64,000 nt of DNA, taken from IMG/VR virus record IMGVR_UViG_3300014050_000012, positions 24,302-88,301 of that record. One strand, given 5' to 3'. The DNA is from a virus. Made by a program: the position numbers and the translations under genes. The notes beneath the pieces are model-generated. The model was given only the letters and a program-made list of their open reading frames with translations. It ran no database searches and was not told the origin of the DNA. Positions 26,657 to 44,323 of this stretch are shown here, piece by piece (within the stretch, counting starts at the first letter, position 1; every line of letters begins with the position of its first letter).

Positions 26657-26669
26657 AGGGAGAATCCTC

Positions 26670-27773: not shown

Positions 27774-27797
27774 TAAATACTAAGGATTCAAATAGGG

Positions 27798-27926: not shown

Positions 27927-28953
27927 AAATATTAGTGCCGTTATTGATAGGATAATTAGTAAAAAAATTTATTTTATCTATCAGGACAATGTCTATTATT
28001 ATAAGTATCCAAATTCTGATATTAAACTACAATCTAGCTTAATATACGAAGAACATTATGACAAAATAAAATACGATAATTTTATACAAGAGGATATTGA
28101 TTTTTATTTACAAGATTTTGATATTGCGGATGCTTCGCTAAAACAATTTTTAGAAGGCAAATATAAACAAATAGATAATCTTAAAGTAGAATTATATCAA
28201 AACTTTTGGAAAACTAAAGAGAGCAAAGCGGCTCGCAATAAGCTTAAAATAGTAAGAAAAACTGTTCAGGATACTGAAAATCAATTACATTATTTAGATT
28301 CATTAACTACAGAATTTTTGTGTGCTCAAAGACAAAATGAATTTTTATTTATTAATGGTATCTATGATAAAAATCATCAATTAATTTTTGACTATAATAA
28401 AATAGATACTATTAGTGAACATATGTTTAATGGTATGATTACAGTAATAAATAGTAAATTGTTAAAATCAGCAGATTTTAGATATATTGCTAGATCGTAC
28501 GATTGGCGATCAATATGGAATATTAAAAATCATCATATTTTTAACGAACCAATAGTAGAGTGGAGCGAAGAACAAAAGAGCTTAGTAGCATTTTCTCAAA
28601 TGTATGATAATATACATCAACATTTAGATTGTCCAGATGATAAACTTATAGAAGATGACGATGCTTTGGATGGTTGGTCTATTTATCAAAACAGAAAATT
28701 AGAACAAGAAAAAAAGAAAAAGGGTGTAAATAGTATTGCGGATAAGTATGATAAAGCTCAGGAAATTTTTCTAGTGGCTAATGATGCTCAGGAATTTAAT
28801 AATATTATGGATATGAATGATGATGTTGCTAAGAGTAAAATGAGTAATAGATTTGATTTTGTACAACAGCATGGACGAGTAACAGAAGATAATTTACCGG
28901 ATGTTAGAGCAGATATTAGACAACAATATGCTAATATGAATAAAAGGAAATAA
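27919..28953 (+). CDS. Tail-assembly-region protein, function unknown
   Basis: The 344-residue soluble protein has no membrane segment or known motif. The N-terminal part (KKIYFIYQDNVYYYKYPNSD) is beta-rich. A helical stretch with charged coiled-coil character follows (LKVELYQNFWKTKESKAARN and onward). The centre has DWRSIWNIKNHHIFNEPIVE, and an acidic DKLIEDDDALDGW leads into a lysine-rich linker. The C-terminus is highly charged and helical. It lies between the tail tube and the two small pre-tape-measure genes, the position of tail-assembly chaperones. No frameshift signal was found. Its start is coupled to the 42-residue frame. Confidence 0.5.
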   Translation: MIRNISAVIDRIISKKIYFIYQDNVYYYKYPNSDIKLQSSLIYEEHYDKIKYDNFIQEDIDFYLQDFDIADASLKQFLEGKYKQIDNLKVELYQNFWKTKESKAARNKLKIVRKTVQDTENQLHYLDSLTTEFLCAQRQNEFLFINGIYDKNHQLIFDYNKIDTISEHMFNGMITVINSKLLKSADFRYIARSYDWRSIWNIKNHHIFNEPIVEWSEEQKSLVAFSQMYDNIHQHLDCPDDKLIEDDDALDGWSIYQNRKLEQEKKKKGVNSIADKYDKAQEIFLVANDAQEFNNIMDMNDDVAKSKMSNRFDFVQQHGRVTEDNLPDVRADIRQQYANMNKRK

Positions 28954-28955
28954 TA

Positions 28956-29243
28956 ATGCAAAATAAGAATATAGAAGACTTGTTTGAGAAAAGAATGACA
29001 ACTATAATGATAGGGGCCTTAGCAAGATTCGAAGAAAATTTTGATTATTTATGGGAAGATAACAAAGCTAATGCGGATTATTTTTTATCATTATGGCAAA
29101 AGGCTAGACAAGAAGTTTTGGACTATGGAAACAATCAAATAAGATTAGCGCAAAAGGATTTGGAAAAATTATACAATCAGAAACACACCAAATATAAATA
29201 TCAATATAAATTTGATATGAGGAGATTTAATGATGAGTACTAA
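28956..29243 (+). CDS. Small helical tail-assembly-chaperone candidate
   Basis: The 95-residue protein is almost entirely helical and charged (NIEDLFEKRMTTIMIGALAR, then a WEDNKANADYFLSLWQKARQ helix), with a tyrosine/lysine-rich tail. It starts two bases after the previous stop. It overlaps the next gene by 14 bases, in a frame displaced by +1. The overlap contains AGG AGA codons but no A- or T-rich slippery heptamer. Position and size fit a tail-assembly chaperone, but the family is not recognised. Confidence 0.5.
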   Translation: MQNKNIEDLFEKRMTTIMIGALARFEENFDYLWEDNKANADYFLSLWQKARQEVLDYGNNQIRLAQKDLEKLYNQKHTKYKYQYKFDMRRFNDEY

Positions 29244-30120
29244 AACTAAGACTTTTAAAGTTGAGTTAGATGGTAAAGATGTTGAGTTTATTATTAGGAC
29301 ACCATCGTTGTCTGAACAAAGGGAAGGACAAAAGGTTTATAATCAATCTTTTAGCGATGCTGTCAAAGCTAAGGCTATCGTTAGAGCCAGAATGGACGAT
29401 CTTTTAGAAGAGCAGGGATTATGGGATAGTTCTAAACAAAAAAGACTCACAGAACTACAGCAAATAGTTTTGGATAACGAAAGAGCATTGGCCAAAGGTG
29501 GTATCCCATTGAAAAAGGCTAAAGAACTTGCTATGGAAATGAAAAATACCAGATTAAAAATTAGAGAACTAATAGCCGATAAAACATCTTTAGATAATCA
29601 TAGCGCAGAAGGACAAGCTGATAATGCTAGATTCAACTACTTGGTAAGTGTGTGTTTGGTGTATAATGAAACTAAACAGCCATATTTTAAAAACTTGGAA
29701 GATTATTTATCGAGATCAAATGAGCCGGTAGCGATTTTGGCCGCTCAACATTTAGCGAACATGCTTTATGGTCTAGATAATGATTATGAGAAAAATTTAC
29801 CAGAAAACAAATTCTTGAAAAAATTTAAATTTGTTGATGATAATCTAAGACTTATTAACGATAAAGGAAAACTGGTTGATGAAGAAGGAAGACTGGTAGA
29901 TGAAAATGGTAGATATATAAATGAGGCTGGAGAATTTATTGATAGGCATGGTAATAGAGTTGATGACAAGGGAGAATATGTTGTTGAACATAAACCATTC
30001 TTAGATGATGATGGCAACCCTATTGCAGAAATTCAAAATGAACTACCAGAAACTAAAGTACAAGAAGAAGATGTTGTTAAGGAAAGCGTTGATTCTACTC
30101 CAGTTGAGTCAGAAGCTTAA
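29230..30120 (+). CDS. Pre-tape-measure protein with 7-residue C-terminal repeats (tail-assembly chaperone candidate)
   Basis: The protein has 296 residues. The N-terminus (KTKTFKVELDGKDVEFIIRT) is a beta domain that resembles the start of several tail chaperones. Residues 42-125 are helical and charged, and 130-200 form another helical block (FNYLVSVCLVYNETKQPYF). Residues 206-268 are nine 7-residue units on a G-x-h-h-D/N-x-x plan (GKLVDEE, GRLVDEN, GRYINEA, GEFIDRH, GNRVDDK and so on). The end is acidic. A GGAG site serves either ATG 29230 or ATG 29233. It immediately precedes the terminator and the tape measure, where tail chaperones are normally found. The repeat tail may bind the tape measure, which is inference. 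Confidence 0.55.
   Translation: MMSTKTKTFKVELDGKDVEFIIRTPSLSEQREGQKVYNQSFSDAVKAKAIVRARMDDLLEEQGLWDSSKQKRLTELQQIVLDNERALAKGGIPLKKAKELAMEMKNTRLKIRELIADKTSLDNHSAEGQADNARFNYLVSVCLVYNETKQPYFKNLEDYLSRSNEPVAILAAQHLANMLYGLDNDYEKNLPENKFLKKFKFVDDNLRLINDKGKLVDEEGRLVDENGRYINEAGEFIDRHGNRVDDKGEYVVEHKPFLDDDGNPIAEIQNELPETKVQEEDVVKESVDSTPVESEA
29845..30033 (+). repeat. Nine 7-residue (21-bp) protein repeats
   Basis: Residues 206-268 of the pre-tape-measure protein keep a strict period of seven with no gaps. Glycine opens seven of the nine units, hydrophobic residues fall at unit positions 3-4, and Asp/Asn (usually) at position 5. The DNA copies are diverged, so the repetition is old and kept at protein level. 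Confidence 0.8.
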
Positions 30121-30127
30121 TCCGATA

Positions 30128-30135
30128 TATAAATA
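30128..30135 (+). promoter_or_regulatory. TATAAATA box in the gap before the tape measure
   Basis: An exact TATAAATA lies in the 82-base gap before the tape-measure start. It matches the T4-type late promoter -10. It sits upstream of a terminator hairpin, so a transcript starting here would have to pass that hairpin to reach the gene. The motif is short and also occurs by chance within coding regions of this AT-rich DNA. Confidence 0.3.
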
Positions 30136-30155
30136 TTATTATAGTTTTGTGTGTC

Positions 30156-30191
30156 AAAGGTTCAGTCTTTATCGGCTGGACCTTTGTTTTT
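30156..30191 (+). terminator. Rho-independent terminator between chaperone and tape-measure genes
   Basis: AAAGGTTCAGTC (30156-30167) pairs with GGCTGGACCTTT (30174-30185) over 12 bp with two G-U pairs and a 6-base loop, followed by G and five T (30187-30191). This is the best terminator in the window. It lies only 11 bases before the tape-measure start, so it may lower expression of the tape measure relative to the tube and chaperones. Confidence 0.7.
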
Positions 30192-30202
30192 AGGGAATAA
30201 AT

Positions 30203-33200
30203 ATGGCAGCATTTAATCTAACAGCACAATTAAATCTTGTTGGACCAACAAATATTAGGCAAATTGTTGGAGATATTAGAAAACAATTAGGAACCATTAA
30301 GGGAACTATTAATGTTGGTATTGATCCACAATCAGCTAAGGCTATAGCACAAGCACAATCTCAAGCTGCTCAATTAAGTTCCGGACTAAATAACGTAGCA
30401 AAATCTGGAAATACTGCCGCAGCTGGCATGAGAGATTTAAATGACGCTGCTGCAAAAAATCAGTTAGGATCTACAGCTAAAAATGCTGCATCGGCCGCTG
30501 ATGCTGCTACAAATCTTGGTAAACAAAGTTCCAGAGCTGCTAAAGATGTTAAGGTGCTAGGTAATGAGTTAGCTGAGTTCGGTAGGCAGTCTGGTTTAGC
30601 TATTAGACGTTTTGCTGCTTTTAGTTTGGTATCAGGAGTTATGTATAAACTTAATAGTGCTATTAATCAAGCATTATCTCAATATATAGATTTTGATAGA
30701 GAATTAGTAAGAGTTTCACAAGTTACGGGAAAAAGTGTTCAAGAATTAGGTAGTTTGGTAGATGAAATATCTTCGTTGGCAGGCAGTACTGGCGTAGCAT
30801 CTAAAGAATTAATACAAGTATCATCAACCTTAGCACAAGCTGGTTTGAGTGCCAGAGAAGCAGAACAGGCCCTAAAAGCTTTGGCGCTTAGTGCTAATGC
30901 GCCGTCTTTTGATAATCTTAATGATACTGTAGAAGGTAGTATCGCTTTAATGAGACAGTTTGGTATTAGGGCAAATGAACTAGAATCAGCACTAGGTAGC
31001 ATTAATGCTGTGGCCGCAGCATTTGCTGTTGAAGCTAGTGACTTAATTACCGCAATTAGTAGAACTGGTGGTGTGTTTGCTAGTGCTAGTAGAGGAGTTA
31101 GTGAAGGAACGCAAGCACTAAATGAATTTATTGCTGTATTCACAAGTGTTCGTGCTACAACTCGTGAAAGTGCCGAAACTATTGCTACTGGTTTAAGAAC
31201 TATTTTTACTCGTATTCAGAGAGAGTCCACAATTACTGCTCTAAGAGAGCTGGGTGTGGAACTTAGAGATGTGGAAGGAAAGTTCGTTGGTCCGTATGAG
31301 GCCGTTAGAAGACTAAGCGAAGGATTGGGACAACTAGATCCTAGATCTCAAGTATTTGCTAATATCATAGAAGAACTTGGTGGTTTTCGCCAAATTGGTA
31401 AGGTTATTCCGCTTATTCAACAATTCGCTACAGCAGAAGCGGCTTTGCAAGTAGCGCTCAAGGGTGGAGATTCACTAGCAGAAGCTAATAGACAAGCCCA
31501 ACAATCTTTAGCTGTACAACTAGCTAAAACTAGAGAAGAGTTTGTGGCATTAGTAAGAGATTTTGCTAATAATTCTGTATTTAGAGGATTTTTAACAACT
31601 ACAATTAGTATAACAAAAAGCATATTAAGTTTAGCAAGAGCGGGAAAATCATTATTTCCCTTACTAACTATACTTGGTGGATTTAAAGCATTCTCTGCTG
31701 CTACTCAGTTTGCTGGTGGATTTTTAAAGGGTGTGCGACCAACAGGAGGAAGACCTGGTGGTTCTGCTAGTAGGGGTATAGGACAAAATCTTGGTGAGGT
31801 AATTAGTGGTTCCAAAAGCGAAAGACAATCAGCATCGTTAGACAAGATAGCTAAAGTTTTAGAAAGTAATGCTGGAAATTTTAATACCAGTGTATCATCT
31901 TTAATTCAACCTATCACACAACTATCTACAGCTATACAACAAAATATAGTTAGTCTTACAGATAATACTGGAGCTTTGACAGCAAATACAGCTGCTATTA
32001 ATAATTTAACTGCTGCATTGGGTATGAAGGGAACAACATTAGCTGGTGGTGGCAAGGTTTTAGGCTTCGCCAAGGGAGGAACTGTTCCTGGCAGCGGAAA
32101 AGGAGACAAAGTTCCAGCATTATTAGAGCCTGGCGAAGTTGTAATGAGCAATAGAGCTGTTAATAAGTATGGAAGAGGTAATTTGGTTAATATGAATAAA
32201 AGATATTTTAAAGGAGGTATAGCCCAAGAAAAGCTTCAAACACTAGTTGAAAAAAGCAATAGTATTAAAAAATATATTAATGACACTATCAATCCAGATG
32301 ATGAAGCATTAACAAAGATAGTTCCATTTCGTGTTGATCTTGATGATAATGATTTCAGAGAAATGAAACAAATCATGATAGATACTGAAAGGCAAAGACT
32401 TAGATATTTAGAAACATATCGTGATGATCCCAAAGCAAATAAACAAGTGCAACAGAGAGCCAGAAGCAGCAAAGACCCTAGAACAGTTGTTGGATTTCTT
32501 GGTCTGAAAAAACCAGAATCTCATTGGGGTCCAGGTAATGCTTTTCAACAGCATTTAATTAAAAGACTAAATATTTCACCAAGCGATATGCCCCCTAATC
32601 TTGGCACACCACAAGAACAATTTAAAGATATTATAGACGAACATTATGCTGTTTTAGACTACCAAGACGGTGATGCTAAATTTTGGAAAGATCTAAGTTA
32701 TTTTGATACACAACCCGGAAAAATAGACATACTAAATAAACAATTTAAAAATGTAGTCAATAATAATCAACTAAAACCAAAACCAACCCCAAATTATGAA
32801 CTTTTTACTTTACCGGATACGCGAGTTTATTATCCTGAGATTGGCACAAAAGAACAATTTATGCGAGATTATGCGGCGTTTACCACAGCAGATTATGCAA
32901 AAACACATCTTCCAGCAGGAGCTTATTCTATTGGTGGAAAAATTCAAAAATTTGCTGGTGGAGGAGAAGCACTACAATCTAAATTATCAACCATAAGAAC
33001 TCTTTTAGGCGAATTTTATGGAAACGATGAACAACTGATATCAAAATCAATTTCTAATTCTATGATAATCGATGAGGCTCGTGCTGATAAAATTATTGCT
33101 AATTTAGAATCATCTAGATCACAGTTACCATTATTTAGAAAATTATTATCAGAAAAATCGTCTTCTGTTGGTGTTTTAAATGGATTTCCAATAGCCAGGT

Positions 33201-36200
33201 ATGGTGCTATTGGTGGTATTGAGACTATGAGATTTGATGAACTAAAAGATGAAGAAACCATTAGAGAGTTTATAAAAAGAGGAAAATTAGCAACACAAGC
33301 TTCGCGTGGTCCAGTTGGTAAACGCATAGTTTACAGTGATCAAAAAGCAGCAAGACGAAGGTTTGCGGTTGGCGGAACAGTAGAGGGCATAGCTGCTAAA
33401 GAAAAAAAATCTATTGAAACTGTAATTTTAGAACAATTATCCAGTTTTGGAGATGCTAGCGGAGTTAAAAAAATACTAGGATTAGGAGCTGGAGAAAGAG
33501 AGATTAGCTCTATATTGAATGCTAGTAATATTAGAGCCGGTAAAAACATAGAAAAAGCTATTAAATTTATAAATAGGGCGCTAGCTAAGACAGGAAAACA
33601 AGATGCTGCTAGAGAAGCAAAAGAAGCAGCCATGAGAAAAGTTGCAATTGCCGGATTATTTCCATTAGATTATAATAAAGATTTTTCAGACTGGAAGTTG
33701 GAAGATGGTAGAGAAATTTATGGTTATGTTAGAGGATTTCAATCTAGCTTTTTACCACAAATAGAAGCTATGCAAGAGGCTAATAGAGCTACTCGTCAAA
33801 AATTTGCTGAAGATATTCAAGATACGGCAGCATTAGGCGGATTAGGTAATAGAAATATTCAGGGGCCAATTCAACCATTAGCAATAGATTTTGATGAAAC
33901 ATTGGCTCTTGGAACAAAAATGTTAAAAGTTAACAAAGAGGGTAAAGAAGAAGAAGATTTACCAGCCTATGCGGATAGAAAAAAAGTTATGGAAAGTCTA
34001 GCCCAAGCTAGACCAACCTCACTAGCTAAAAGATTGGCTAGTATAGAACAAAAAAATCCCGGATATGTTAGGATGTATAGTCGTATCTTAACGGCCCGTC
34101 CTCAAAGCACAGCAGATATTATAGCATCTACTCTTAATAGATTCGGATTACCGTATTTAGAACAAGATGTTACTGGAGTTAGTCAAGGATTAGGAACAAA
34201 TATAGCAAAAGCTAAAGCTGCTAATGTTGCAGCAGCGGAAAAATTGATCGATGATAGTGAAGAAAATATTAGAGCAACAATGGCTGCTGGTAAAAGCACT
34301 TTTCGTTATGGCGAAGTTCCAGAACTCAAAGGACCAGCAGAAGAAAAATTTGGACAATCTAATATTGAAGGAGGCTTGTTAGAAGCGGCACTATCGCAAT
34401 TATTGGGTTATAATATAAATGTTGATGCTTTAGAAAGAAATAGGGCGATTGATTTTCCACAAGGACTAGGTAGAGGTGCTCAACTTTTTGGATTACCTCC
34501 GAATATTGAAACAGAAGTAAAAAGAACTTTGGACGGAGATAGTTTTTCAAAAGCCAGAGAAGAATTTAGTAGATACTTTACAGAAAATCCACAAGCCTAT
34601 GCTAAAGGAGGAGCAGCAACATTTGGCTCTGGATCATTTAAATTTCCCAAAAGAATAAGTAATGCTTATGTTCGGGAAATGGAAAAATTATTAGAACAAG
34701 AACAAATGGAGAAGGTTTTTTCAACGTATCCTGGTAATGAAAGAATGATTGTAGACGAAGAGGCTGTGAAAAAAGGTTACGAATCTCCTTTTAGTAGAGA
34801 ACTATTCATAAATTCGTTTAAGGATAAAATAAATAGAAATACAGTTTTTGAAAGAATGGGGCAATTTGCGCGAGTTATAGGATTGCCACCCGCCGATCTT
34901 TTATCTGCAATACCAACTCAATTAGACTTTGGTGTTAATTATCCTGCTACAGCATTATTTAGCAAGGATCCTTCTGGCCCAGGAACCAGGGGACTACAAG
35001 GGGTGGATCTGACACCATATGGTTATACTGAACAAGATAAACAAGATTTATTCGGATATACTAAACTAATAGAAGAAAAAAAGAAACAAATATTAAAAAC
35101 AATTAAAACTCCTGTTACAACATATGAAGATGGTAGTTTTGGTTATGATGTGGCTCTAACAGAAAAATTAAGAGCAGAATTAGACGATTTACAAAAACAA
35201 CAAAGATCTCTTATTGATAAAAACAATGCGGCTATTAAAGCTGCAAAAGAATCCAGATTACAATCCGCAAATCAGAGTGGTCGAGGTAGCGTTGGTATAG
35301 CTACTAATCCGTTCAATACAAGTCAACGTCAAGACTATAGTATTTTATATCATGAATTAACTCATCAACTTTTTAATAGTCTTAGAACTAAAAATGCTCA
35401 ATCATTTGAAGCATACAAGGCAAAAGTTTCTAGTTTATTCGATGGAAACAATGATGATGTGGCAGATGCTTTTGATACTCTGGTAGGAAATAGTGGATAT
35501 AATAGTGCTGATGTTGCTTATGGAAGAAGTTATAAACTTAATGGACTAAGTAGTTTAATGATAGGCTCCGCTAAAAAAGAGTCGTTTGAAAAATATGTTA
35601 ATAGTGATCCAGAATATGTTCCAGAATTAAGAAAAACTTGGGCCGAAACAAATTCCACCACAAAGGCCAAAGCCTTTAAGCCACTTAATCCTAGAGTTAA
35701 TGATGTTTTATTAAGAGGTAAAATAAGTCAAGATGTTATAGATAAATATGAAGATAATGGTAAAGAAGAATTTTTAACCACACTAGTACAAAAATTACCA
35801 TTATTAGATGAAAATTTAAGTGGAATTTTGGATAGTACTCTGGATGAGTTGTTGGGAGGTGCTGAAATAAGTAGACAAAAATTTGCTATAGGTGGTAAAG
35901 TTAATTTATATCATGGTTCGACAACAGGAATAGATGATAATCAATTAAAGAAATTTAAAGAACAAGGAGCTTTATCTAATATAGCTCAAGGATATGGTCA
36001 GGGTGCTGGATTTTATGTCTGGACTGATAAATTAACCGCTATTAAACATGCGGATATGAGGATCAAAGCAGCAAAAGAAGGTATAAATAGTATTATGGGA
36101 GGAGATACTGGTGGAAAAGGAATGATCTTAGAATTCCAAGAATCTTTGGATCCATCCTTATGGGATCTTGATTATGAAATATCTAAAGGGCCAGTTATCA

Positions 36201-39200
36201 AATGGATAGCCGATAATTATGAAACTTTAAAAGATAAAGTTGCCGCATCTGAAGGAATAGCCGGCGTTACCGAAGTCGAAAAATATGATCCTAAAGTTGC
36301 CAAAGAAACTGGATTATTATATGGCGGCGCTAATATTATGACACAAACAGCTACTGGATCCAAAAAATATATAGATGCAGATTCAGCTGGAGATATACGA
36401 GAGGGCGAAATTCTTGGACAAATTATGAATAGGCTTCAGTCTAATGATCCTAGTCTTGTTCACTCATTTGAAAATAGTTTTTTCGGTCAACAATCTTTTC
36501 CAAAAGGATCGGCTCTAAAATATGTTGGATCGTCGCCATTAATACCAGTAAATATTGAAACATTCGCTTCTGGTGGTAAGGCTGGACTAGCAGATGTTAA
36601 TAAAGTTGGAGAACAACTATCTAGTGATTTTAAATTAATGAAAGGAAAAAATGCATGGAATCAATTAGAAAATAATTGTTTAAGTATTGCTAATAAGGTA
36701 TCCGATATGTTTGGCTATGTTGTAGAACCAGATAAAATTAGACAACAACTTGATACTTTCCAAAAATTAAGACTTGGTAAAACTAGCGCATTTGGATTAA
36801 AGCCGACAGAAGAAGTATTAAAGAAAATGCCATCATTGAATAGAATGCTTAATAATCCAACTTTAGCTGCTAGTACTGGTAATATAGTAGTTAGAGAAGG
36901 CGAAGAAATGATGAAACATGTATCATTTGAACATATGAATAAGGAATATAATTTTGGAGCAGCTGGTCCTGACTGGCCCATAGTGTTAAGAATACCTTTA
37001 AAAAAGAAAGATGCTGAGCAAAAACGCTATGGAGGTATGCTTAATAAATTCACTTCGGGAGGAACCATACCAGCACTAGTAAGTAACGGTGAGGCTTATG
37101 TGCCTCCGAAGCTTGCTAAACGCATTGGATATGGAACACTAAGTCGTATGAATATGGCCGATAAAAATGGCATGGGGAGATTTAGTGATGGTGGAATTAG
37201 TGTATTTAAGGGTCCAGGTAGTGGAACTAGTGATAGTATACCAACAAGTTTACCAGTAGGAAGTTTTATAATAAGAGAAAAGGCTACTAAAGCTTTGGGA
37301 TTAAATAAGGGTGGGAGCGTAGGCATTCAAAAATTTCAAGACGGAGGCGCCCCAACAAATAGCGGAGACCTATATTTTACCACCTTGTCATCTGCTCAAA
37401 TACAAGATATAGTTGGTAAAGGATCATCTAGAACAGGAATAGATGTTGAATCTTTAGATTTATTAACAAGATATGCTACAGATGCAGGCATGAGCATAGA
37501 AGATTTTTCTAGCGGACTAATAAGAGCTAGAGATACTGCAATTGAATCTGCTTTAGCACAAGGACAAAGTTTTAAAGAAGCAGCATTAGCTGGACAACAA
37601 GCTGCTATTGCGATGGCAGATATTCCAAATATACAAGTTACAGGAGAAAATCCGTTAGACGTACTAAGATCCTTAACAGCATCGTCCACTAGAGTACAAG
37701 CAAATGTCGAACAACGTAGAGAAATATTAAGTGATCCTGAAATTATTGCTGCTATTAATGAAACTAATGATTTAATGAGTAAACTAACTCCTGCTGAACA
37801 ATTTTCTGTTCAAACAGGAACCGGACCAATGACCCCACAAATGGAAGAAGCAGCAGCATCTAGAAGAAGACAAAAAAATATTGTTGGATATAAAATAGAA
37901 GAAAGACAAACTCAAGCCAATCAACCAGGATTTGTACCACCAACTATACAACAACCAACTAATTTAATGGATATTGATGGTATTAATAATCAATTGAAGG
38001 AAGCTCAAAATAATGCTGCATTATATGCGTCATCTCTTAGGGATCAAGCTAATGCTATTCGCGCACAACAAGAAATTACCATAGATCCTGGCACCTTTGC
38101 TGGATTAGAAGCTAAAGCACAAGCTCTAGAAGAAAAAGCAGCAGCAACCGAAAAAGCTTATCAAGATTTGGCAGATAGTACACAAGAGAGTGTGTCTTGG
38201 TTTGATACAGAATATCAGGCGGCTATAGATAGTATGAGAATACGAGCAGAGTCTGTAGCTAAAGCAACACAAGATGTTGAAAAAGCTATGGTAACAAGAG
38301 CTAAAGAAATAGCCTCTGCAAATCCAGAATTAACAGCTGAAGAAATTGGACAACAGATTAGCACAGAAAAAACAGGAATAGTAGCAGAAGCTAGGGCTCA
38401 ACAAACAGAAGCCGAAACAAAATTTGGTAGAGCACAAAGTAGGGTTGATACACTAGCGGGCAAAGCTGGTGCTGGAGCAGATATTTTAGCGGCTGATAAT
38501 AAAGCTAAGGCAGAAGCACAAGCTAAAGCAGATGCTGAAAAAGCCTTAGAGGCTCGTAAACAACAAGCGCGTGACCTTGGGGCGAAACGTGCGGCTATTG
38601 CTGTACCAGAAAAAAGAGAGTACGAAACAGAACAAGAATTTAACGATAGACGACAAAAGGCAACAGAAAGATTTACCAGACAATCAGCACGAGAATTGGG
38701 TCTTAGTAAAACTAGATTTGTTAGCTCAAGACAAAAAAAAGCTATAGAAGAAGAAGAAGCTAAAAAAACTAAAGTTGAGAGAGAAAAAACAGATGTTGCT
38801 ATTCAAAGCACAGATACTAAAGCTACACTATTATTAGTACAAGCTATTAATGCAAATACTGTAGCACAAACTGGTTCGGCAGATTCTGTGAAATCATTAA
38901 CCGAACAAACAAATGGTCTCATTGCTACAAATGAACAACTAACTAATGCAAAAAATGCTGATATTGAACAGGCTAATGCTTCTCCTGAGAGAAGCGACCT
39001 ATCTAAAGACACCCTAAGAGAAATTCCATTCTTAGACAAACTTGAAACATTAGGATCAGCAGTTGGTGACTTTGCTAATAATTTTGCAGCATCTACTACT
39101 GATATTGATGGCAATATTGGTAAATTTGGTAGTGTTCTTCAGGGCGGTGCTTCTAGATTAGAATCTGGTATCAAAAAACTAGCTGATGGTATCAGAAATG

Positions 39201-42200
39201 CTAATACGGCATTTGCAGATACTAAAATAGGAAAGTTTGCGGATTCATTTAGTCAATATGGCACAGCAATAGGTACTGGTGTAACAAGCGTACTACAATA
39301 TATGGCCGACCAATCTAATGGTTATGAAACACTAACAGGATCAATACTACAAGCAGGATCAACAATAGCTAGTACAGCAACCATATTCGGTACTTTTGGT
39401 GCTCAATTCGGTCCGCTTGGTGGATTATTGGGAACACTTGCTGGCGTAGGGGCTGGAGCAGTACAAAGCATAAGAGATTATGTAGAAGCTCAGAATAAGG
39501 CCGCGGCAGAATTGTTAGAGACACAACGAACAGATGCTTTAGAAAAAGCATCATCAGATATTGCTGTATTTTTAGATAATGTCAATCCGTCTGCGAAAGA
39601 TCTTGAAAGCGCTCTTAGTAATTTGGCTCAGGTAGTAAATATTGAAAAAGAACAAATGTCTACTAATACAGAAGCTAGCAGATATAAATCAACTTATGGT
39701 GGATTATTTGTTGGTAAAAAAACAGAAGCTGAAATAAGAAAAGCAGATGCTGCTGCCGCTGCGGCTAATACTGGAGGAGCACAAGCATCCAAACAATTAA
39801 TATCTGGTATGGCAAATACTGGAATGAAAATGGAAGATATAGAAAAAAGTTTAGGAGCCGATGTTTTTGGTAATCTTAAACTACAAATAGCAGAAGCTGA
39901 TGCTATATTTGTTAAAGAAGCAAGAGATGCTGCCGATCAACTTAAAGCTGGTAAGATTAGTGGCGAACAATACGTTACTGCTGTAGATAATGCTAAAAAT
40001 GCAGCATTTGAACGAGCCACATCCGAATTAAGAGTTAAAGAAGCTAATGAAGAATATAGAAAAAGTGTTACAGATGTTAGAAAAAGACTAGAAAGTCAAG
40101 GAACAGGATTTCTTAAAGAATTAATAACATCTACTCCTAAGCAAAGAACAGAAATGAAGAAAGACTTTGCGTCTGCGGGAGATTTACTAAAGGGTGATTT
40201 TACAAAAAGTCGTGCTCAACAAGAAGAAGCCGCAAAAAAAGCTTTTAGAGAAACTAGCGGCACAGTAAAAGAAAAGAGAGAAGCAGCCGAAGCCGCAAAA
40301 GCTCAAGTCAGAGAAAGTAATTTTCAAAGAGCAGAACAAATTTTAAGTTTTGGAGATCAAAGTAGTGATGAAATTAGGAATGCTAGAGCCAATCTATATG
40401 AAACTCAACTTAGAGAGCAAGGAATAAATCCTAATGAGGGTATGGCAAAGATGGTTATTGATAGTTTAAGAGCGCCAGATCCTGAAAGAGCAGCTCAAGA
40501 AAATCTTAAAAAGGCCACAGAAGAAGCAGCAAAACAACTAGCTATTCAAACAGCGGCAACAAATGCGAATACTGACGCATTGAAAGGAGGAAAAATTACA
40601 ACAAAGTATGCTACAACAGGCGGTGTTGCTGATGCTCAGACCGCTACGAATGCTGTATCTAATGAAGGAATGGGTAATTTGGGATGGAATGCAGCAAAGG
40701 TGATTGGCGCAGGCGCTGTTACGTATGGTTTTGATAGAGCTACTGGGGGAGGAATAAGACGCAGCGTAAAGAAAGGTATTCAAAATTTTCGTAAAGATCC
40801 AAATACACCCGACACGGAATCAGCAGCTGAACAACCAAAGCCTCAAAAAAGAAAAGGATTTTTGGAAAGACTTTTGGGTGGTAGTGAAGTTGCCGATACT
40901 CCTAAACCAGCTGTCGCTACCGACCAAACACCCCGAACACCACCTCGTCGTCAACCAAATGCGCCTAAAGATAATGTTCGACAACCGCCGCGACGAGGCC
41001 AACCATCTGCTGAAGCGCCCCAACCCCAAGCAGCAGTACCAGGACGCAAAGCTAAAGTAAGCGCTAGTGCTAAAAAAGGAGTTGGAGGTTTGGTCGCGGC
41101 TGGTGTCGGTCTTTTTGCTATAGGTAGTAGTTATTTTGGCGGAGGCGCTCAACCAGAATCAGACTCTGGAGCGCAGCAACTAACAGAAGAAGACCAACCA
41201 ATTATTGAAAGTTCTCCAGAAATTATTCAATTGTTATCTGCTATAGAAGCTAATACTAGAGAATGCTGCGCTGGAGGTGGGACTGGCGGAACCGCTAGTG
41301 GAGAAAGAGTAACAACTAATACTGGTAGTATGGAAAATATTCCTACAACTAAAGAACCGGCAGTTGCTGTTGAGAAAAAAACCGATGCAATAGCTAAAGA
41401 AATAACAACTGCTGCTAGTGAACCAATAACAATGATGGAATCATTAAGTGATGAATTTGCAGCTTTTAGTAGTAGGGGCTATCAAAATGCTGAAGTAACA
41501 AATGCAAGTCTTAATACGCTGGGATCTTTTGCTACCGATATAATGGGTACAACAGATGTTGCAAGAACTATGAGGAGTGGTGGAATAGGAGATACTACTG
41601 GTCAAAATAAATTTCTATCTAAACCAATGGGAGTTACGGGATACACCACAAGAGGAATGGGTGCTTATGGAGCAGTACAATCCCTTAGAGCTTTTAGAGA
41701 AACTGGTGCTGTTGATGATGCTTTGGGTATCGTTGCTGGGGCTGGGAATACTGCTGGTGGTAGATATGCTGGATTAGTTGGAGATACGGCCAGCGCTGGA
41801 AGAAATGCGTATAGACTCTTTAGTGGAAAATCTAGAGAAGAAGCAACATTGGCTCAAGATAGTCTTGGCTTAGTTGCAGACTTAGGGCAGGTTGGTCTAC
41901 AAGCTTCTCCAGAAATTGCTAAATATGGACCACAAGCATTACAAACAGCTAAAAACTTTGCACCAAAATCAATACCAGCTCCATCGGTATCCACACCAGT
42001 GTCCACACCATCGGCAGCATGGCTACAAGCTAATGGTTATTCATCTGATGAGATTGCTAAGATAGTTGGTAGTGGTGCAGATGATACGGCCGCAGCAGCA
42101 GGGAAATCTGGTGGTTTATTAAGCAAAATAACAAAACCTTTGCAAGGATTAGGTAAGATACCTGGTTTAGGAACAGCCGCTAGACTTGGCGGCGGAGTTC

Positions 42201-44323
42201 TTGGCGGTTTGGGTGTTGCTATGGGAGGAGTGAGCGGATACTCGGCGGATACCGAAGCAACAGGTAGAAATAAATACGTAAATACAGCTTTGGGTGCTTT
42301 ATCTGGTACGGGAACGACAATGGGCGATGTTGGACAACAATCTACTATCGGAGGATTATTGGGGGTTGAAAAGGGCAGTGAGACTGATCAGATGATTGGT
42401 AATGCGTCTAGCCTTGCTGCGGGTACACTAGGAGTTGCTGGCGCTATTGGTGGTGCCGCAGCACTAGGTGTGGGTGCCGCAGCAGCAGCTCCTGCTCTTG
42501 CTATTGGCGCTACTGTAGCAGGAGGCGCGCTTTTAACGCAAGAATCTATAGGATTATATAACGATAGAAGTGTTCTAGCAGAAAAAGAAAAACAAACAGC
42601 AGCTATGGAAGAAGCTTCACGAAGAACTAAATTAGTTAAAAATAACCAAGGAGAATATGTAAGACAAGCTAAGACAGCACAAGACTTTGATTTTGGATAT
42701 AATTTTACTGCTGATGAAAGTAATGCAGTAAGAGCGTATGCTAAAAATCAAGCAGAATCCAATAGAGCAAAAGAATTAGCTTCAAAAACAAGTCTAACTC
42801 AAGATGAAACATCTGAATTGGCAAATATTAAAAAATCTTTTGGTATGGAAGAAGGCGCATCTAATCAAGATATTTTAGCAGAAGCTCAAAGAAGATCAGA
42901 TACAGCAGCTAGTGACCTAGCAGCTAAAGCTAGAACAAGAGCCACAACAACAAAAGTTGGGTTATTTGGCGACAGATATGATCAACTTGATGAGAAAAAA
43001 CAAACAGAAAATATGCAAAAATATTTATCTGCTGCTCAACAGTATCAACCTGAAACATTTGTGCAACCAGAAGAAATACCAGCCCCTCAAACTACTATTG
43101 TGACCAAAGAACCGACAGCGATTCAAAAAGAACAAAAACAAACACCTATCATTTCTGCACAAGCACCCCAAGGAACAGCCGCTGTTCAAGCCACAAGCGC
43201 AGCATTACAGCAACAACAAGCTGTCCCAGCCCCCGAAACTATAACAGGACAAGGAGGACAAGTAATTCCAGTTGTTGGAGGTCCTGGCTCCGGCGCCGCT
43301 ATAACAAGTGGTCCTGGATTTATTAGAGCAGCCGAAGCTTATGATGCCAAGCAACAAAAAGTAATAACTCCAACACAAGCAACAGGTGCAGCAGCTGTTC
43401 AAGCCACAAGCGCAGCATTACAACAACAAGAATTTAATGTTGAAGAAGAAATGAAAAAAACGAGAGGTATTTCTGTTCCAGGAGCACCCGCCACAGAGAA
43501 GCTACCACAGGCACAAAATGCACCCACAGATGAATCTAGAAGTAAACAATTAAATGATGTTCCCACTTATGGTCTTAGTAAAACAGAACAAGCTCTAGTA
43601 AAAAGTCAAGATGTTTTGAAAAAAGCAAAAGAAAAAGCTTTATCTTTAGGAACTCCAGAAGGTAATATGGAAGCAAATAGATTAGATGAACAAATCCAAT
43701 CTAAGAGTAAAGAGCTGTTAGCATCACGACAAGCTAGCGCTGGTGGAGCTGGCGGAGATGTTATGAAAGATGTTAATCTTTATAGACAAGCAAGAGAACA
43801 AGCTATGGCTGGCGGATTACCCGCCGCAACAGCACAAGCAGCAATACAACCATCTGTAGTTTCAGCAGGTACGATTGATGCTACTATGGCAACCCAATTA
43901 CAGCCCGCACCAGCAGAAACAGATAATTGGTTCAAAAATGCTCAAGCTGATTTGACTCGTATTCAAGCATCTCCCGATGCTAATATTACAGGAAATACCC
44001 AACCCGCTAATGGTGTAATTAATACTAGCACAACTCAGCAGCAACCAACAGCCGCAGGAATGTCTCAATTATTTGATACAGCAGCTATTGGAAATACTTT
44101 ACAAACTGTATTTGGTCAATTTGTTTCCGATCTACAAAATATTCAACTACCAAAAATACCGGATATGGTTACTATGGAAGGCAAACATACTGTTGAGGTT
44201 ATTATTAATGGAGCGGATGTATTAAAATCATTAGAACCAATGCTACAAGATATAATAAAAACAAAATTAACCGAATTTAATAATAAACTTAATAGTGCCA
44301 CAGAGGGTGGATTTGGAGCATAG
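30203..44323 (+). CDS. Tail tape measure protein (4,706 aa) with embedded enzyme-like domains
   Basis: Residues about 150-450 are a TP901-type tape-measure core (LVDEISSLAGSTGVASKELI, then ATGLRTIFTRIQRES). F-A-x-G-G punctuation motifs lie at 622, 917, 1054, 1467, 1894 and 2121, with related ones at 669, 2283 and 2378. They divide the middle into cargo segments. The segment 1059-1466 has HAD motifs (D1229-F-D-E-T, T1297, D1350-D1351). The segment 1471-1893 has HELTH at 1717-1721 and E1855/E1856. The segment 1899-2120 has LYHGS (1902-1906) and GAGFYV (1934-1939). The segment 2126-2282 has C2159 and H2239. The TMP-type loop GDKVPALLEPGEVVMSN follows 622. Residues 2400-4600 are coiled-coil with Ala/Gly-rich hydrophobic stretches, and the C-terminus (MEGKHTVEVIINGADVLKSL) is typical of tape measures. 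At about 0.15 nm per residue the whole chain would span some 700 nm; without the cargo block about 460 nm. Confidence 0.9.
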   Translation: MAAFNLTAQLNLVGPTNIRQIVGDIRKQLGTIKGTINVGIDPQSAKAIAQAQSQAAQLSSGLNNVAKSGNTAAAGMRDLNDAAAKNQLGSTAKNAASAADAATNLGKQSSRAAKDVKVLGNELAEFGRQSGLAIRRFAAFSLVSGVMYKLNSAINQALSQYIDFDRELVRVSQVTGKSVQELGSLVDEISSLAGSTGVASKELIQVSSTLAQAGLSAREAEQALKALALSANAPSFDNLNDTVEGSIALMRQFGIRANELESALGSINAVAAAFAVEASDLITAISRTGGVFASASRGVSEGTQALNEFIAVFTSVRATTRESAETIATGLRTIFTRIQRESTITALRELGVELRDVEGKFVGPYEAVRRLSEGLGQLDPRSQVFANIIEELGGFRQIGKVIPLIQQFATAEAALQVALKGGDSLAEANRQAQQSLAVQLAKTREEFVALVRDFANNSVFRGFLTTTISITKSILSLARAGKSLFPLLTILGGFKAFSAATQFAGGFLKGVRPTGGRPGGSASRGIGQNLGEVISGSKSERQSASLDKIAKVLESNAGNFNTSVSSLIQPITQLSTAIQQNIVSLTDNTGALTANTAAINNLTAALGMKGTTLAGGGKVLGFAKGGTVPGSGKGDKVPALLEPGEVVMSNRAVNKYGRGNLVNMNKRYFKGGIAQEKLQTLVEKSNSIKKYINDTINPDDEALTKIVPFRVDLDDNDFREMKQIMIDTERQRLRYLETYRDDPKANKQVQQRARSSKDPRTVVGFLGLKKPESHWGPGNAFQQHLIKRLNISPSDMPPNLGTPQEQFKDIIDEHYAVLDYQDGDAKFWKDLSYFDTQPGKIDILNKQFKNVVNNNQLKPKPTPNYELFTLPDTRVYYPEIGTKEQFMRDYAAFTTADYAKTHLPAGAYSIGGKIQKFAGGGEALQSKLSTIRTLLGEFYGNDEQLISKSISNSMIIDEARADKIIANLESSRSQLPLFRKLLSEKSSSVGVLNGFPIARYGAIGGIETMRFDELKDEETIREFIKRGKLATQASRGPVGKRIVYSDQKAARRRFAVGGTVEGIAAKEKKSIETVILEQLSSFGDASGVKKILGLGAGEREISSILNASNIRAGKNIEKAIKFINRALAKTGKQDAAREAKEAAMRKVAIAGLFPLDYNKDFSDWKLEDGREIYGYVRGFQSSFLPQIEAMQEANRATRQKFAEDIQDTAALGGLGNRNIQGPIQPLAIDFDETLALGTKMLKVNKEGKEEEDLPAYADRKKVMESLAQARPTSLAKRLASIEQKNPGYVRMYSRILTARPQSTADIIASTLNRFGLPYLEQDVTGVSQGLGTNIAKAKAANVAAAEKLIDDSEENIRATMAAGKSTFRYGEVPELKGPAEEKFGQSNIEGGLLEAALSQLLGYNINVDALERNRAIDFPQGLGRGAQLFGLPPNIETEVKRTLDGDSFSKAREEFSRYFTENPQAYAKGGAATFGSGSFKFPKRISNAYVREMEKLLEQEQMEKVFSTYPGNERMIVDEEAVKKGYESPFSRELFINSFKDKINRNTVFERMGQFARVIGLPPADLLSAIPTQLDFGVNYPATALFSKDPSGPGTRGLQGVDLTPYGYTEQDKQDLFGYTKLIEEKKKQILKTIKTPVTTYEDGSFGYDVALTEKLRAELDDLQKQQRSLIDKNNAAIKAAKESRLQSANQSGRGSVGIATNPFNTSQRQDYSILYHELTHQLFNSLRTKNAQSFEAYKAKVSSLFDGNNDDVADAFDTLVGNSGYNSADVAYGRSYKLNGLSSLMIGSAKKESFEKYVNSDPEYVPELRKTWAETNSTTKAKAFKPLNPRVNDVLLRGKISQDVIDKYEDNGKEEFLTTLVQKLPLLDENLSGILDSTLDELLGGAEISRQKFAIGGKVNLYHGSTTGIDDNQLKKFKEQGALSNIAQGYGQGAGFYVWTDKLTAIKHADMRIKAAKEGINSIMGGDTGGKGMILEFQESLDPSLWDLDYEISKGPVIKWIADNYETLKDKVAASEGIAGVTEVEKYDPKVAKETGLLYGGANIMTQTATGSKKYIDADSAGDIREGEILGQIMNRLQSNDPSLVHSFENSFFGQQSFPKGSALKYVGSSPLIPVNIETFASGGKAGLADVNKVGEQLSSDFKLMKGKNAWNQLENNCLSIANKVSDMFGYVVEPDKIRQQLDTFQKLRLGKTSAFGLKPTEEVLKKMPSLNRMLNNPTLAASTGNIVVREGEEMMKHVSFEHMNKEYNFGAAGPDWPIVLRIPLKKKDAEQKRYGGMLNKFTSGGTIPALVSNGEAYVPPKLAKRIGYGTLSRMNMADKNGMGRFSDGGISVFKGPGSGTSDSIPTSLPVGSFIIREKATKALGLNKGGSVGIQKFQDGGAPTNSGDLYFTTLSSAQIQDIVGKGSSRTGIDVESLDLLTRYATDAGMSIEDFSSGLIRARDTAIESALAQGQSFKEAALAGQQAAIAMADIPNIQVTGENPLDVLRSLTASSTRVQANVEQRREILSDPEIIAAINETNDLMSKLTPAEQFSVQTGTGPMTPQMEEAAASRRRQKNIVGYKIEERQTQANQPGFVPPTIQQPTNLMDIDGINNQLKEAQNNAALYASSLRDQANAIRAQQEITIDPGTFAGLEAKAQALEEKAAATEKAYQDLADSTQESVSWFDTEYQAAIDSMRIRAESVAKATQDVEKAMVTRAKEIASANPELTAEEIGQQISTEKTGIVAEARAQQTEAETKFGRAQSRVDTLAGKAGAGADILAADNKAKAEAQAKADAEKALEARKQQARDLGAKRAAIAVPEKREYETEQEFNDRRQKATERFTRQSARELGLSKTRFVSSRQKKAIEEEEAKKTKVEREKTDVAIQSTDTKATLLLVQAINANTVAQTGSADSVKSLTEQTNGLIATNEQLTNAKNADIEQANASPERSDLSKDTLREIPFLDKLETLGSAVGDFANNFAASTTDIDGNIGKFGSVLQGGASRLESGIKKLADGIRNANTAFADTKIGKFADSFSQYGTAIGTGVTSVLQYMADQSNGYETLTGSILQAGSTIASTATIFGTFGAQFGPLGGLLGTLAGVGAGAVQSIRDYVEAQNKAAAELLETQRTDALEKASSDIAVFLDNVNPSAKDLESALSNLAQVVNIEKEQMSTNTEASRYKSTYGGLFVGKKTEAEIRKADAAAAAANTGGAQASKQLISGMANTGMKMEDIEKSLGADVFGNLKLQIAEADAIFVKEARDAADQLKAGKISGEQYVTAVDNAKNAAFERATSELRVKEANEEYRKSVTDVRKRLESQGTGFLKELITSTPKQRTEMKKDFASAGDLLKGDFTKSRAQQEEAAKKAFRETSGTVKEKREAAEAAKAQVRESNFQRAEQILSFGDQSSDEIRNARANLYETQLREQGINPNEGMAKMVIDSLRAPDPERAAQENLKKATEEAAKQLAIQTAATNANTDALKGGKITTKYATTGGVADAQTATNAVSNEGMGNLGWNAAKVIGAGAVTYGFDRATGGGIRRSVKKGIQNFRKDPNTPDTESAAEQPKPQKRKGFLERLLGGSEVADTPKPAVATDQTPRTPPRRQPNAPKDNVRQPPRRGQPSAEAPQPQAAVPGRKAKVSASAKKGVGGLVAAGVGLFAIGSSYFGGGAQPESDSGAQQLTEEDQPIIESSPEIIQLLSAIEANTRECCAGGGTGGTASGERVTTNTGSMENIPTTKEPAVAVEKKTDAIAKEITTAASEPITMMESLSDEFAAFSSRGYQNAEVTNASLNTLGSFATDIMGTTDVARTMRSGGIGDTTGQNKFLSKPMGVTGYTTRGMGAYGAVQSLRAFRETGAVDDALGIVAGAGNTAGGRYAGLVGDTASAGRNAYRLFSGKSREEATLAQDSLGLVADLGQVGLQASPEIAKYGPQALQTAKNFAPKSIPAPSVSTPVSTPSAAWLQANGYSSDEIAKIVGSGADDTAAAAGKSGGLLSKITKPLQGLGKIPGLGTAARLGGGVLGGLGVAMGGVSGYSADTEATGRNKYVNTALGALSGTGTTMGDVGQQSTIGGLLGVEKGSETDQMIGNASSLAAGTLGVAGAIGGAAALGVGAAAAAPALAIGATVAGGALLTQESIGLYNDRSVLAEKEKQTAAMEEASRRTKLVKNNQGEYVRQAKTAQDFDFGYNFTADESNAVRAYAKNQAESNRAKELASKTSLTQDETSELANIKKSFGMEEGASNQDILAEAQRRSDTAASDLAAKARTRATTTKVGLFGDRYDQLDEKKQTENMQKYLSAAQQYQPETFVQPEEIPAPQTTIVTKEPTAIQKEQKQTPIISAQAPQGTAAVQATSAALQQQQAVPAPETITGQGGQVIPVVGGPGSGAAITSGPGFIRAAEAYDAKQQKVITPTQATGAAAVQATSAALQQQEFNVEEEMKKTRGISVPGAPATEKLPQAQNAPTDESRSKQLNDVPTYGLSKTEQALVKSQDVLKKAKEKALSLGTPEGNMEANRLDEQIQSKSKELLASRQASAGGAGGDVMKDVNLYRQAREQAMAGGLPAATAQAAIQPSVVSAGTIDATMATQLQPAPAETDNWFKNAQADLTRIQASPDANITGNTQPANGVINTSTTQQQPTAAGMSQLFDTAAIGNTLQTVFGQFVSDLQNIQLPKIPDMVTMEGKHTVEVIINGADVLKSLEPMLQDIIKTKLTEFNNKLNSATEGGFGA
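43181..43422 (+). repeat. Direct repeat pair inside the tape-measure C-terminal region
   Basis: The 29 bases at 43181-43209 recur identically at 43394-43422, 213 bases apart. Both encode AVQATSAALQQQ in the same frame, inside a Gln/Ala/Pro-rich linker. The near-identity suggests a recent in-frame duplication. A repeat of this kind could change linker length by recombination. Confidence 0.75.

Follow-up and report, generated by a model that had tools for sequence, protein, structure and literature searches.

The tape measure protein (TMP) encoded in the 64,000-nucleotide stretch of viral DNA analysed here (the window) contains a row of enzyme-like domains, which our analysis confirmed, and its 60 non-redundant relatives bear differing sets of cargo domains in differing orders. 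Enzyme-bearing TMPs and multi-effector polypeptides were already known, and it is this difference among relatives that is new. The N-terminal half of the TMP has probably become a carrier of interchangeable enzyme modules, which would be delivered into the host at DNA entry.

The TMP gene is one uninterrupted open reading frame of 4,706 aa (30203..44323; window positions on the plus strand here and throughout), which is open also in the full record. Its core (aa 188-394; 30764..31384) matches PhageMin_Tail PF10145 with E 8.7e-24 and 84.9 bits (cut-off 33.2), and is weakly similar to YomI-type TMPs (~23% identity). The C-terminal part is rich in Ala, Gln and Glu, and a hydrophobic segment (aa 3627-3645; 41081..41137) and hydrophobic Gly/Ala-rich segments (aa 4070-4112; 42410..42538) were predicted in it by the Kyte-Doolittle method. 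Tail-family matches could be found at 768-4604 and head/tail-type matches at 23524-24546, and the immediate neighbours of the TMP gene had no PHROG match. The profile match, the long frame, the hydrophobic segments and the tail genes of the window bear out the initial annotation, which had described a TMP with a TP901-type N-terminal core. The contig L001 matches positions 20203-35230 with 99.83% identity across 15,028 nt, so that the core, domains A and B, the HAD domain and the start of domain D are not a misassembly; its coverage ends before the HExxH motif, and the stretch from there onward lies outside its match.

The cargo domains occupy aa 672-2275 (32216-37027) between two linker blocks. 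The first block (aa 606-671; 32018..32215), made of GG motifs and a "DxVPAxLxPGE" mini-domain, opens the cargo region and has a match in 57 of 60 relatives at 33-88% identity, and the second (aa 2276-2385; 37028..37357), which closes the region, has a match in 59 of 60. Within the region, domains are separated by F-A-x-G-G (FAxGG) linkers, observed 469 times in 61 TMPs against 53.8 expected. The motifs follow in the order HAD DFDET (aa 1229), HELTH (aa 1717), ADP-ribosyltransferase (ART)-like YHGS (aa 1903), and Cys2159 with His2239 in a piece described as papain-like. Eleven of the 12 histidines of the window TMP fall in aa 612-2385 (Fisher p 1.7e-4), a contrast that is weaker across the 61 TMPs (345/90,490 versus 244/114,198).

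Relatives were taken as the best 80 of 205 from the core alignment, and together with a first scan 87 TMPs were read; 76 of 88 TMPs, window included, were longer than 1,400 aa and gave the 61 non-redundant ones (the window and 60 relatives), while tree counts refer to 53 TMPs, that is, the window and 52 relatives longer than 2,000 aa. The core could be aligned in 60/60 non-redundant relatives at 53-88% identity. The same alignment gave 24 pattern matches and no relative in genome_contigs, and therefore no host was found. Single-linkage clustering of linker-bounded segments put 199 of 332 into one cluster, and seeded HMM families were used instead. Structures were modelled for domains E and F together and for C1-HAD-C3-D together.

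The putative HAD phosphatase domain (aa 1218-1371; 33854..34315) carries the DxDxT, T-or-S, K and DD motifs, of which D14, D16, T18, D135 and D136 are invariant in 28/28 aligned sequences and K123 is kept in at least 90%. Its model matched the T4 Pnkp phosphatase (5uj0) with Z 11.0, 126 aligned residues and an rmsd of 3.3, and nearly all of the 50 listed matches were HAD proteins as judged by name, the closest being polynucleotide 3'-phosphatases; Foldseek gave nothing at E 0.001 or better for this model, with matches at E 0.012 or weaker. The preceding segment C1 (aa 1058-1215; 33374..33847) accompanies the HAD domain and was present in 21/61 TMPs.

Domain E (aa 1898-2122; 35894..36568) is predicted to have the ART fold. 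Two members of the catalytic H-Y-[E/D] triad could be assigned: the His, which like the DYE residues is invariant in 17/17 sequences, and the Tyr, which is kept in at least 90%. The model has a pLDDT of 65-94 by ten-residue block, mostly near 90. As judged by name, 46 of its 50 listed structural matches belong to the ART superfamily, with PARP13 and the Rhs toxin TreX among them; the best Z, 8.4 for Tpt1 (1wfx), followed by 8.2, 7.5 and 7.3, is close to the level that the search tool calls common. No Foldseek match of the domain E model had an E at or below 0.001, and the best BFVD match of the E and F model, to a Phormidium phage Pf-WMP3 protein (E 1.1e-3, probability 0.60), was set aside. 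The ART profile found 22 loci, 17 in long linker-bearing ORFs and five as stand-alone proteins; neither domain E nor the stand-alone relative L102 had a match among phage records.

Domain D (aa 1470-1890; 34610..35872), a putative zincin metallopeptidase, was present in 15/61 TMPs, and its HExTH motif (HELTH in the window, aa 1717-1721; 35351..35365) and the downstream Glu384 (A4 numbering), which we propose as a candidate ligand of the zinc site, are invariant in 15/15 sequences. The domain holds two His only, both inside HExxH. Helices predominate in its model, one of them 43 residues long, and the HAD domain filled the match lists of the C1-HAD-C3-D model. Domain F (aa 2126-2275; 36578..37027) occurs in the window TMP only among the 61 TMPs and has one Cys and two His in an order that suits a papain-like enzyme (Cys2159/His2239), with low pLDDT and no homologues; a search of phages at E up to 10 returned only matches of E 3-7, and the proposed papain-like identity is unproven. 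Cargo domain A (aa 672-908; 32216..32926) carries LDYxxGDAKF, with D124, G128, D129 and K131 invariant in 6/6 sequences, which we take to be a PD-(D/E)XK-nuclease-like signature from the motif; scanning the first cargo slot for nuclease motifs gave a result that was no more than suggestive. Domain B (aa 920-1054; 32960..33364) was found in 4/61 TMPs, and the near-universal C3 module (aa 1384-1462; 34352..34588) in 54/61. The GxxxE..D..(E/D)xK-like pattern of C3 is imperfectly kept among members, and C3 may be structural rather than enzymatic.

Of the four enzymes proposed, three have support, as putative activities. The row that the initial annotation had placed in ~1,600 middle residues held for the HAD, HExxH and ART-like members, which have invariant motif residues and, for HAD and ART, predicted folds, but not for the papain-like one, for which no homologue was found and the model is of low confidence. 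Modelling of C1-HAD-C3-D and of E with F returned HAD and ART folds and not coiled coil, with domain D mostly helical, and a loss of all catalytic residues among relatives was looked for and is absent, the HAD, HExxH and ART columns being invariant.

The window cargo pieces had no significant Pfam match, the best for the ART piece being DUF3990 (E 0.2) and DUF3991 (E 0.064), and the middle region of the TMP had no tblastn match at 1e-5 in 50,697 phage records. No convincing match came from PDB profile searches with the families HAD, ART, D, C3, GNAT-like, second ART and A, and for A there was no match. Across the 61 TMP cargo regions, Pfam at E 0.01 recognised ADPrib_exo_Tox (7), HIGH_NTase1_ass (7), SNase (2) and ART-PolyVal (1), the last only in L061 at 22.4 bits against a cut-off of 31.2 and not in the window. 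Scanned alone, the three pieces from relatives with ART or NTase matches fell below Pfam cut-offs, and seven other pieces, SNase-, GNAT- and kinase-like ones among them, gave nothing better than E 0.1. The GNAT, SNase-like family, kinase-like and T4-style leader labels are our assumptions from motifs. Among the families searched against the PDB, it was only the P-loop/NTase one that had such matches: to UPF0348 (9.4e-5), to nicotin(amid)ate-nucleotide adenylyltransferases (0.011 and 0.015), to bifunctional NadR (0.49) and, through Walker-A, to UvrA. Single TMPs further had Pfam matches at E 0.0003-0.009 to MLTR_LBD, NNH7, AAA_30, ZapG-like, DUF2605, DUF3759 and Bacteriocin_IIc.

Comparison among relatives indicates that modules have evidently been exchanged between phages with distant cores, in blocks ending at or near linkers. 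In L004, the closest core relative (88%) among the best 80 of 205, A and HAD are 33% identical to those of the window, and B, C1, D, E and F were undetected. Five relatives (L021, L023, L027, L028 and L030) have cores of only 56-59% identity, yet their C1-HAD-C3-D is 89-100% identical and their cargo blocks share 92.7-95.2% DNA identity with the window; against L027, DNA identity is 99.4% in A and 99.8% in C1 but 62% in the core. The shared blocks extend over aa 614-1898, 910-1898, 910-1893, 1057-1898 and 1054-1898, and thus end at the FAIGG linker joining D and E (aa 1894-1898; 35882..35896), at aa 1898 in four and aa 1893 in one; the chance of block ends lying at or near linkers, when these are defined by a loose motif, is ~7e-6. 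The family detected next behind D differs: it is ART, and then F, in the window, and a GNAT-like family in L027, L030 and L021, while L028 has a second HExxH family (4/61 TMPs) there and L023 has none. HAD, ART and GNAT-like domains are spread over the core tree nearly as they would be after shuffling, and the presence of D, P-loop and A follows it somewhat. The suggestion that segments are gained, lost or swapped between conserved flanks agrees with the differing domains and with the constancy of the N-terminal core and linker blocks, but not with the C-terminal flank, which between the window and the 60 relatives shows 19-25% identity or has no match. That the domains form an array is upheld by their discreteness, their conserved catalytic residues, the predicted HAD and ART folds and the swapping among relatives.

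Substitution rates evidently reflect purifying selection on most cargo domains. Against the same five relatives, dN/dS was 0.05-0.24 in 21 of 25 comparisons; it was 1.09 for C1 against L023 on almost no changes, zero for C1 against L027, undefined for A against L027 (no synonymous change, dN 0.007), and 0.45 at high dS for A against L028. Against L004, with old divergences, values were 0.25-0.69.

Precedents could be found for parts of this arrangement. The TMPs of TM4 and SPbeta (YomI) carry peptidoglycan hydrolase motifs and open the cell wall, and likewise have an enzyme inside the TMP; the difference is that a wall hydrolase was not recognised in the window TMP. Thermus phage P23-45 gp96 (5,002 aa) is described as a virion RNA polymerase fused to a TMP, and its authors hypothesise that the polymerase acts at the TMP pore during DNA entry (PMC10770324). 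It resembles the window TMP as a giant TMP with an enzyme fused N-terminally and a metallopeptidase present, but as described gp96 has a single RNA polymerase (PMC10770324), and the window TMP has several small enzyme-like modules swapped at repeated linkers. Polyvalent proteins, which occur in phages and in conjugative elements, similarly hold several effector-type domains in one polypeptide; their catalytic classes are described as including zincin-like peptidases, ARTs, GNATs, kinases and nucleotidyltransferases, and they are predicted to enter with the DNA (PMC5512222). In the window TMP such domains are predicted from sequence and models. Those of phages are described as likely capsid-packaged, some fused to MuF or portal, whereas the carrier here is the tail ruler, and the words "tape" and "papain" are absent from the main text of that paper (PMC5512222). 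T4 Alt is likewise an ADP-ribosyltransferase entering with DNA (PMC5512222), but it is a separate head protein and domain E part of a tail ruler, though the five stand-alone homologues of E exist. The contractile injection system effectors Sle1 and Tme, as described in PMC13277306, share a TMP-like coiled-coil carrier and exchangeable functional domains, but belong to bacterial nanomachines and have a C-terminal functional domain, whereas the window type belongs to phages and has several internal domains. In the open-access literature, a tape-measure effector array was not among the matches listed.

Delivery of the cargo into the host at DNA entry appears to be the best explanation, because of the behaviour of tape measures (as described in PMC13190303) and the P23-45 precedent (PMC10770324). 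In the virion, the TMP chain with its cargo would be located in the tail, and on infection the C-terminal part with its membrane segments would exit first and build a conduit. Tape measures of other phages exit in this C-terminal-first order. The cargo would then be pulled through and refold at or inside the inner membrane; folded domains of such size should not fit the lumen of an ordinary tail tube, and therefore it would travel unfolded. It could act on host proteins, NAD-dependent targets or nucleic-acid targets ahead of phage gene expression: modification of a host protein or nucleic acid would fall to the ART and removal of phosphates to the HAD domain, and the peptidase may cleave a host target or release modules. 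The linkers may serve both as flexible spacers and as short common homology with which recombination swaps modules. More tentatively, and with doubt outweighing confidence, the TMP of a large phage group might be a multi-effector injection polyprotein built by recombination, in which FAxGG-flanked cassettes would be swapped at linker DNA, carried down the tail, freed at linkers by a carried peptidase or a host protease, and strike several host targets (by NAD-dependent modification, phosphate/nucleotide chemistry and on nucleic acids) before phage genes are read.

The enzymes might instead act in the producing cell during assembly and not be delivered, the HExxH domain, for example, maturing the TMP or removing cargo before closure of the tube and others modifying proteins of the tail or the host at a late stage. 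Some phages do process their TMP, and domain D lies internal to the chain with its metal motif kept. The P23-45 TMP likewise has a metallopeptidase domain (PMC10770324). We nevertheless consider this unlikely, since D occurs in 15/61 TMPs and the second HExxH family in four, which speaks against a general maturation step (other peptidases may occur in the rest), and module exchange would better suit targets under conflict.

It is less probable still that the cargo is freed at lysis or hits competing cells or phages in the style of polymorphic toxins, with the tail as a mere carrier: the ART fold is frequent in interbacterial and toxin-antitoxin proteins (TreX, DarT1, ParT and MbcT among the listed matches), but the domains lie within a structural protein of the tail, which rather suggests that they are used in the virion. 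We give equally little credence to a non-catalytic filler that lengthens or shapes the ruler or decorates the tail, its motifs being relics; the incomplete conservation of the E/DxK pattern of C3 and the altered Walker A in 2/18 P-loop copies (L066, L067) would fit such a role, but the invariant HAD, HExxH and ART catalytic columns and the low dN/dS in most comparisons argue against it.

Our results suggest that the tail ruler doubles as a carrier by which early-acting enzymes, in a set that can be exchanged, are brought into the bacterium. If so, it would be a second route of enzyme injection by tailed phages in the first minutes, besides head-packaged proteins, and its contents would be traded between phages module by module, which would help to account for the large size and variability of some tape measures. 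The passage of folded enzymes through a narrow tail tube would become testable, and a link would be made between phage tails and those effectors of bacterial injection systems that resemble tape measures. Tape measure genes would then be a readable source of uncharacterised anti-defence and takeover enzymes.

The whole finding lies inside a single plus-strand ORF, the tape measure protein (TMP) gene at window 30203-44323 (the window itself being G000:C1:24302-88301 of a virus record of 88,908 bases), which encodes 4,706 aa and matches PhageMin_Tail (PF10145, E 8.7e-24) in its N-terminal core. Contig L001 matches the window at 99.83% identity over 15,028 nt, reaching window 35230, so that misassembly is ruled out as far as the first part of domain D. 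Downstream of the core, residues 612-2385 are split by GG-containing linkers of the form F/Y-A-x-G-G, between which lie, all on the plus strand, domain A (aa 672-908), domain B (aa 920-1054), C1-HAD-C3 (aa 1058-1462), domain D (aa 1470-1890), domain E (aa 1898-2122) and domain F (aa 2126-2275). The motif F/Y-x-x-G-G occurs 11 times in this TMP against a shuffle mean of 1.31 (maximum 5 in 100 shuffles), and 469 times against 53.8 expected across 61 non-redundant TMPs, a count slightly favoured by setting cargo regions to stop at a linker-type motif. Composition also shifts at the cargo borders, since residues 612-2385 hold 11 of the 12 His and 9 of the 13 Trp of the protein, although the His contrast is weaker across all 61 TMPs (0.38% in the cargo region versus 0.21%). 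Above-threshold hydrophobic segments are C-terminal (aa 3627-3645 and 4070-4112), except that the core has a single marginal segment at aa 267-285. The initial annotation placed the cargo between two conserved flanks, but the C-terminal flank shows 19-25% identity to relatives or no match, and this part of the picture was not borne out.

An initial search using the core yielded 16 loci, and a core profile scan of IMG/VR gave 205 relatives, of which the best 80 were used; a profile scan of GTDB genomes found no core relatives. Altogether 87 TMPs were read, and 61, including that of the window, were non-redundant and longer than 1,400 aa. Families derived from the window are carried by 28 (HAD), 54 (C3), 21 (C1), 15 (D), 10 (E), 6 (A), 4 (B) and 1 (F) of these 61, and families seeded from the relative L006 comprise a P-loop + HIGH-type nucleotidyltransferase (18), a GNAT-like family (14), a staphylococcal-nuclease-like family (4), a second HExxH family (4) and a second ART (3). 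With an E threshold of 0.01, Pfam searches of the cargo regions from all 61 TMPs returned ADPrib_exo_Tox (3+4), HIGH_NTase1_ass (3+4), SNase (1+1), ART-PolyVal (1) and seven further families in one region each, and no match in the window's own cargo region. Among ten lone pieces of relatives, ADPrib_exo_Tox (1.9e-4), HIGH_NTase1_ass (1.3e-4) and ART-PolyVal (2.3e-4) were matched, all three under the curated cut-off, and the other seven had no Pfam match better than E 0.1. The P-loop/HIGH module, found at L006 aa 1652-2053 and in 17 other TMPs, carries TxGH and ISGTxVR motifs, is adenylyltransferase-like by profile search, and could possibly be NAD-related cargo. Another relative, L055, has at about aa 850-1060 what we take to be a protein-kinase-like glycine loop with HxxN...D motifs; this segment had no Pfam match.

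The initial annotation proposed four enzymes, and its HAD and ART assignments are upheld by conserved residues and model matches. All 28 sequences of the HAD family keep D14, D16, T18, D135 and D136, although the members outside the window are only 30-97% identical to it; the predicted C1-HAD-C3-D model (mean pLDDT 76, pTM 0.45) has as its top structural match the T4 polynucleotide kinase 3′-phosphatase domain (Z 11.0, rmsd 3.3, 126 aligned). The predicted model of E has pLDDT near 90 in most ten-residue blocks. When VIA-align was run on Foldseek's top chains, this model matched the tRNA 2′-phosphotransferase Tpt1 (Z 8.4, 8.2 and 7.5), PARP13 (Z 7.3) and the Rhs toxin TreX (Z 7.0), followed by other ART-fold proteins, and 46 of the 50 matches listed belong to the ART superfamily, as judged by protein names. 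Because Foldseek alone gave no significant match for E, the strength of the ART evidence lies in the uniform match list together with the conserved His and Tyr. The HExxH assignment stands as a motif: all 15 sequences of the family keep HExTH and a Glu further downstream, pointing to a putative peptidase, while the predicted model of D is mostly helical and the window's domain D has just two His, both within the motif. Domain F as a papain-like enzyme is unproven. Domain A has a conserved D...GDxK pattern, which presumably resembles that of PD-(D/E)XK nucleases.

The strongest new evidence is the exchange of modules between TMPs. The nearest relative by core among the best 80 of 205, L004, is 88% identical there, yet its A and HAD are just 33% identical and B, C1, D, E and F are not detectable. 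Conversely, five relatives (L021, L023, L027, L028 and L030) have cores of 56-59% identity but match the window at 89-100% across C1-HAD-C3-D. At the DNA level, L027 is 62% identical in the core (dS 1.2) versus 99.4% in A, 99.8% in C1, and 92-95% in B, HAD, C3 and D (dS 0.19-0.28, dN/dS 0.10-0.15). Selection is evident when the cargo is compared with that of the five relatives, since 21 of the 25 dN/dS values lie at 0.05-0.24, the outliers being C1 versus L023 (1.09, almost no changes) and L027 (0), and A versus L027 (dN 0.007, synonymous changes absent) and L028 (0.45, dS 1.6); across the old divergence from L004 the values are 0.43 (A), 0.69 (HAD) and 0.25 (C3). High-identity DNA blocks shared with the five relatives span aa 614-1898, 910-1898, 910-1893, 1057-1898 and 1054-1898. 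Their four distinct junctions (614, 910, ~1055 and ~1896, the last two being averaged values) are each no more than 2 aa from a linker GG when a loose motif is used, with a chance probability of ~7e-6 for a motif chosen after the linkers were seen; by the strict motif, junction 614 is off by 11 aa and junction 1893 by 4 aa. Past junction 1898, the next detected family is ART + F in the window, GNAT-like in L027, L030 and L021, and the second HExxH family in L028, with none detected in L023. On the core tree, the minimum numbers of changes versus shuffled means are 16 versus 18.1 (HAD), 7 versus 8.5 (ART, 9 carriers), 10 versus 12.4 (GNAT-like), 10 versus 13.2 (D), 6 versus 13.9 (P-loop) and 4 versus 5.8 (A), so the presence of D, P-loop and A follows the core more than that of HAD, ART and GNAT-like does. 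In a separate close pair, L078 and L049, DNA identity is 89-90% to the left and 82% to the right of L078 aa 2037-2261, an ART domain in whose place L049 has ~100 other residues.

The ART profile found 22 loci, 17 inside long linker-bearing ORFs and five as stand-alone proteins of ~230-440 aa (L102 at 4941-5654, L104, L108, L109 and L110, on contigs of 31-381 kb), a split that hints at how the cargo works. Four of the five stand-alone homologues have N-termini that, we assume, resemble T4 head-targeting leaders. Leaders of a similar kind also occur on other L102 ORFs; the loose pattern is present in 34 of 1,097 background ORFs as well, and some L108-L110 matches look like chance.

Other features of the locus were also recorded. 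Upstream of the window in the same record, L113:7719-10835 is a 1,038-aa ORF whose residues 70-147 and 533-1029 match terminase large subunit families; endonuclease/HNH-type matches lie between the two parts and tblastn matches are intein-containing helicases, so it is probably a terminase with an intein. Directly upstream of the TMP gene, ORFs 28956-29243 and 29230-30120 overlap by 14 nt and may encode a pair of tail chaperones linked by coupling or frameshifting. Long ORFs lie at 11367-22493 (3,708 aa, no Pfam match), at 44356-49050 (1,564 aa), 49076-51046 (656 aa) and 51055-57759 (2,234 aa), these three without Pfam or PHROG match, and at 57762-64000 (>2,079 aa). The only minus-strand ORFs above 150 aa in the window, 8023-8607 and 8604-10202 (the latter without PHROG match), sit within a plus-strand module.

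The 5,002-residue TMP of phage P23-45 carries one RNA polymerase, which transcribes the pre-early genes and, by hypothesis, works at the pore (PMC10770324); the present TMP extends that case to a swappable array. It resembles the polyvalent proteins, which join peptidases, ARTs, kinases, GNATs and NTases in a single chain, the phage ones being likely capsid-packaged, but here the carrier is a tape measure (PMC5512222). A bacterial parallel is offered by contractile injection system (CIS) effectors, which are tape-measure-like with exchangeable domains (PMC13277306). The linker mini-domain is matched by two T4-like cyanophage proteins, from S-SM2 (766 aa, GU071095.1 6678-8978) and Bellamy (799 aa, MF351863.1 6841-9240), which are annotated as transmembrane or hypothetical and which we infer to be tape measures; unlike the window TMP, they are far too short for an enzyme array. 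An open-access literature search for enzyme arrays in tape measures returned no paper among the matches listed. The results show this carrier, its modules with conserved catalytic residues, selection, and exchange at or near linkers. Linker DNA may supply the shared homology for module swapping and the protein linkers may hold the modules apart, and the cargo would ride in the tail and then enter alongside or shortly after the TMP pore.
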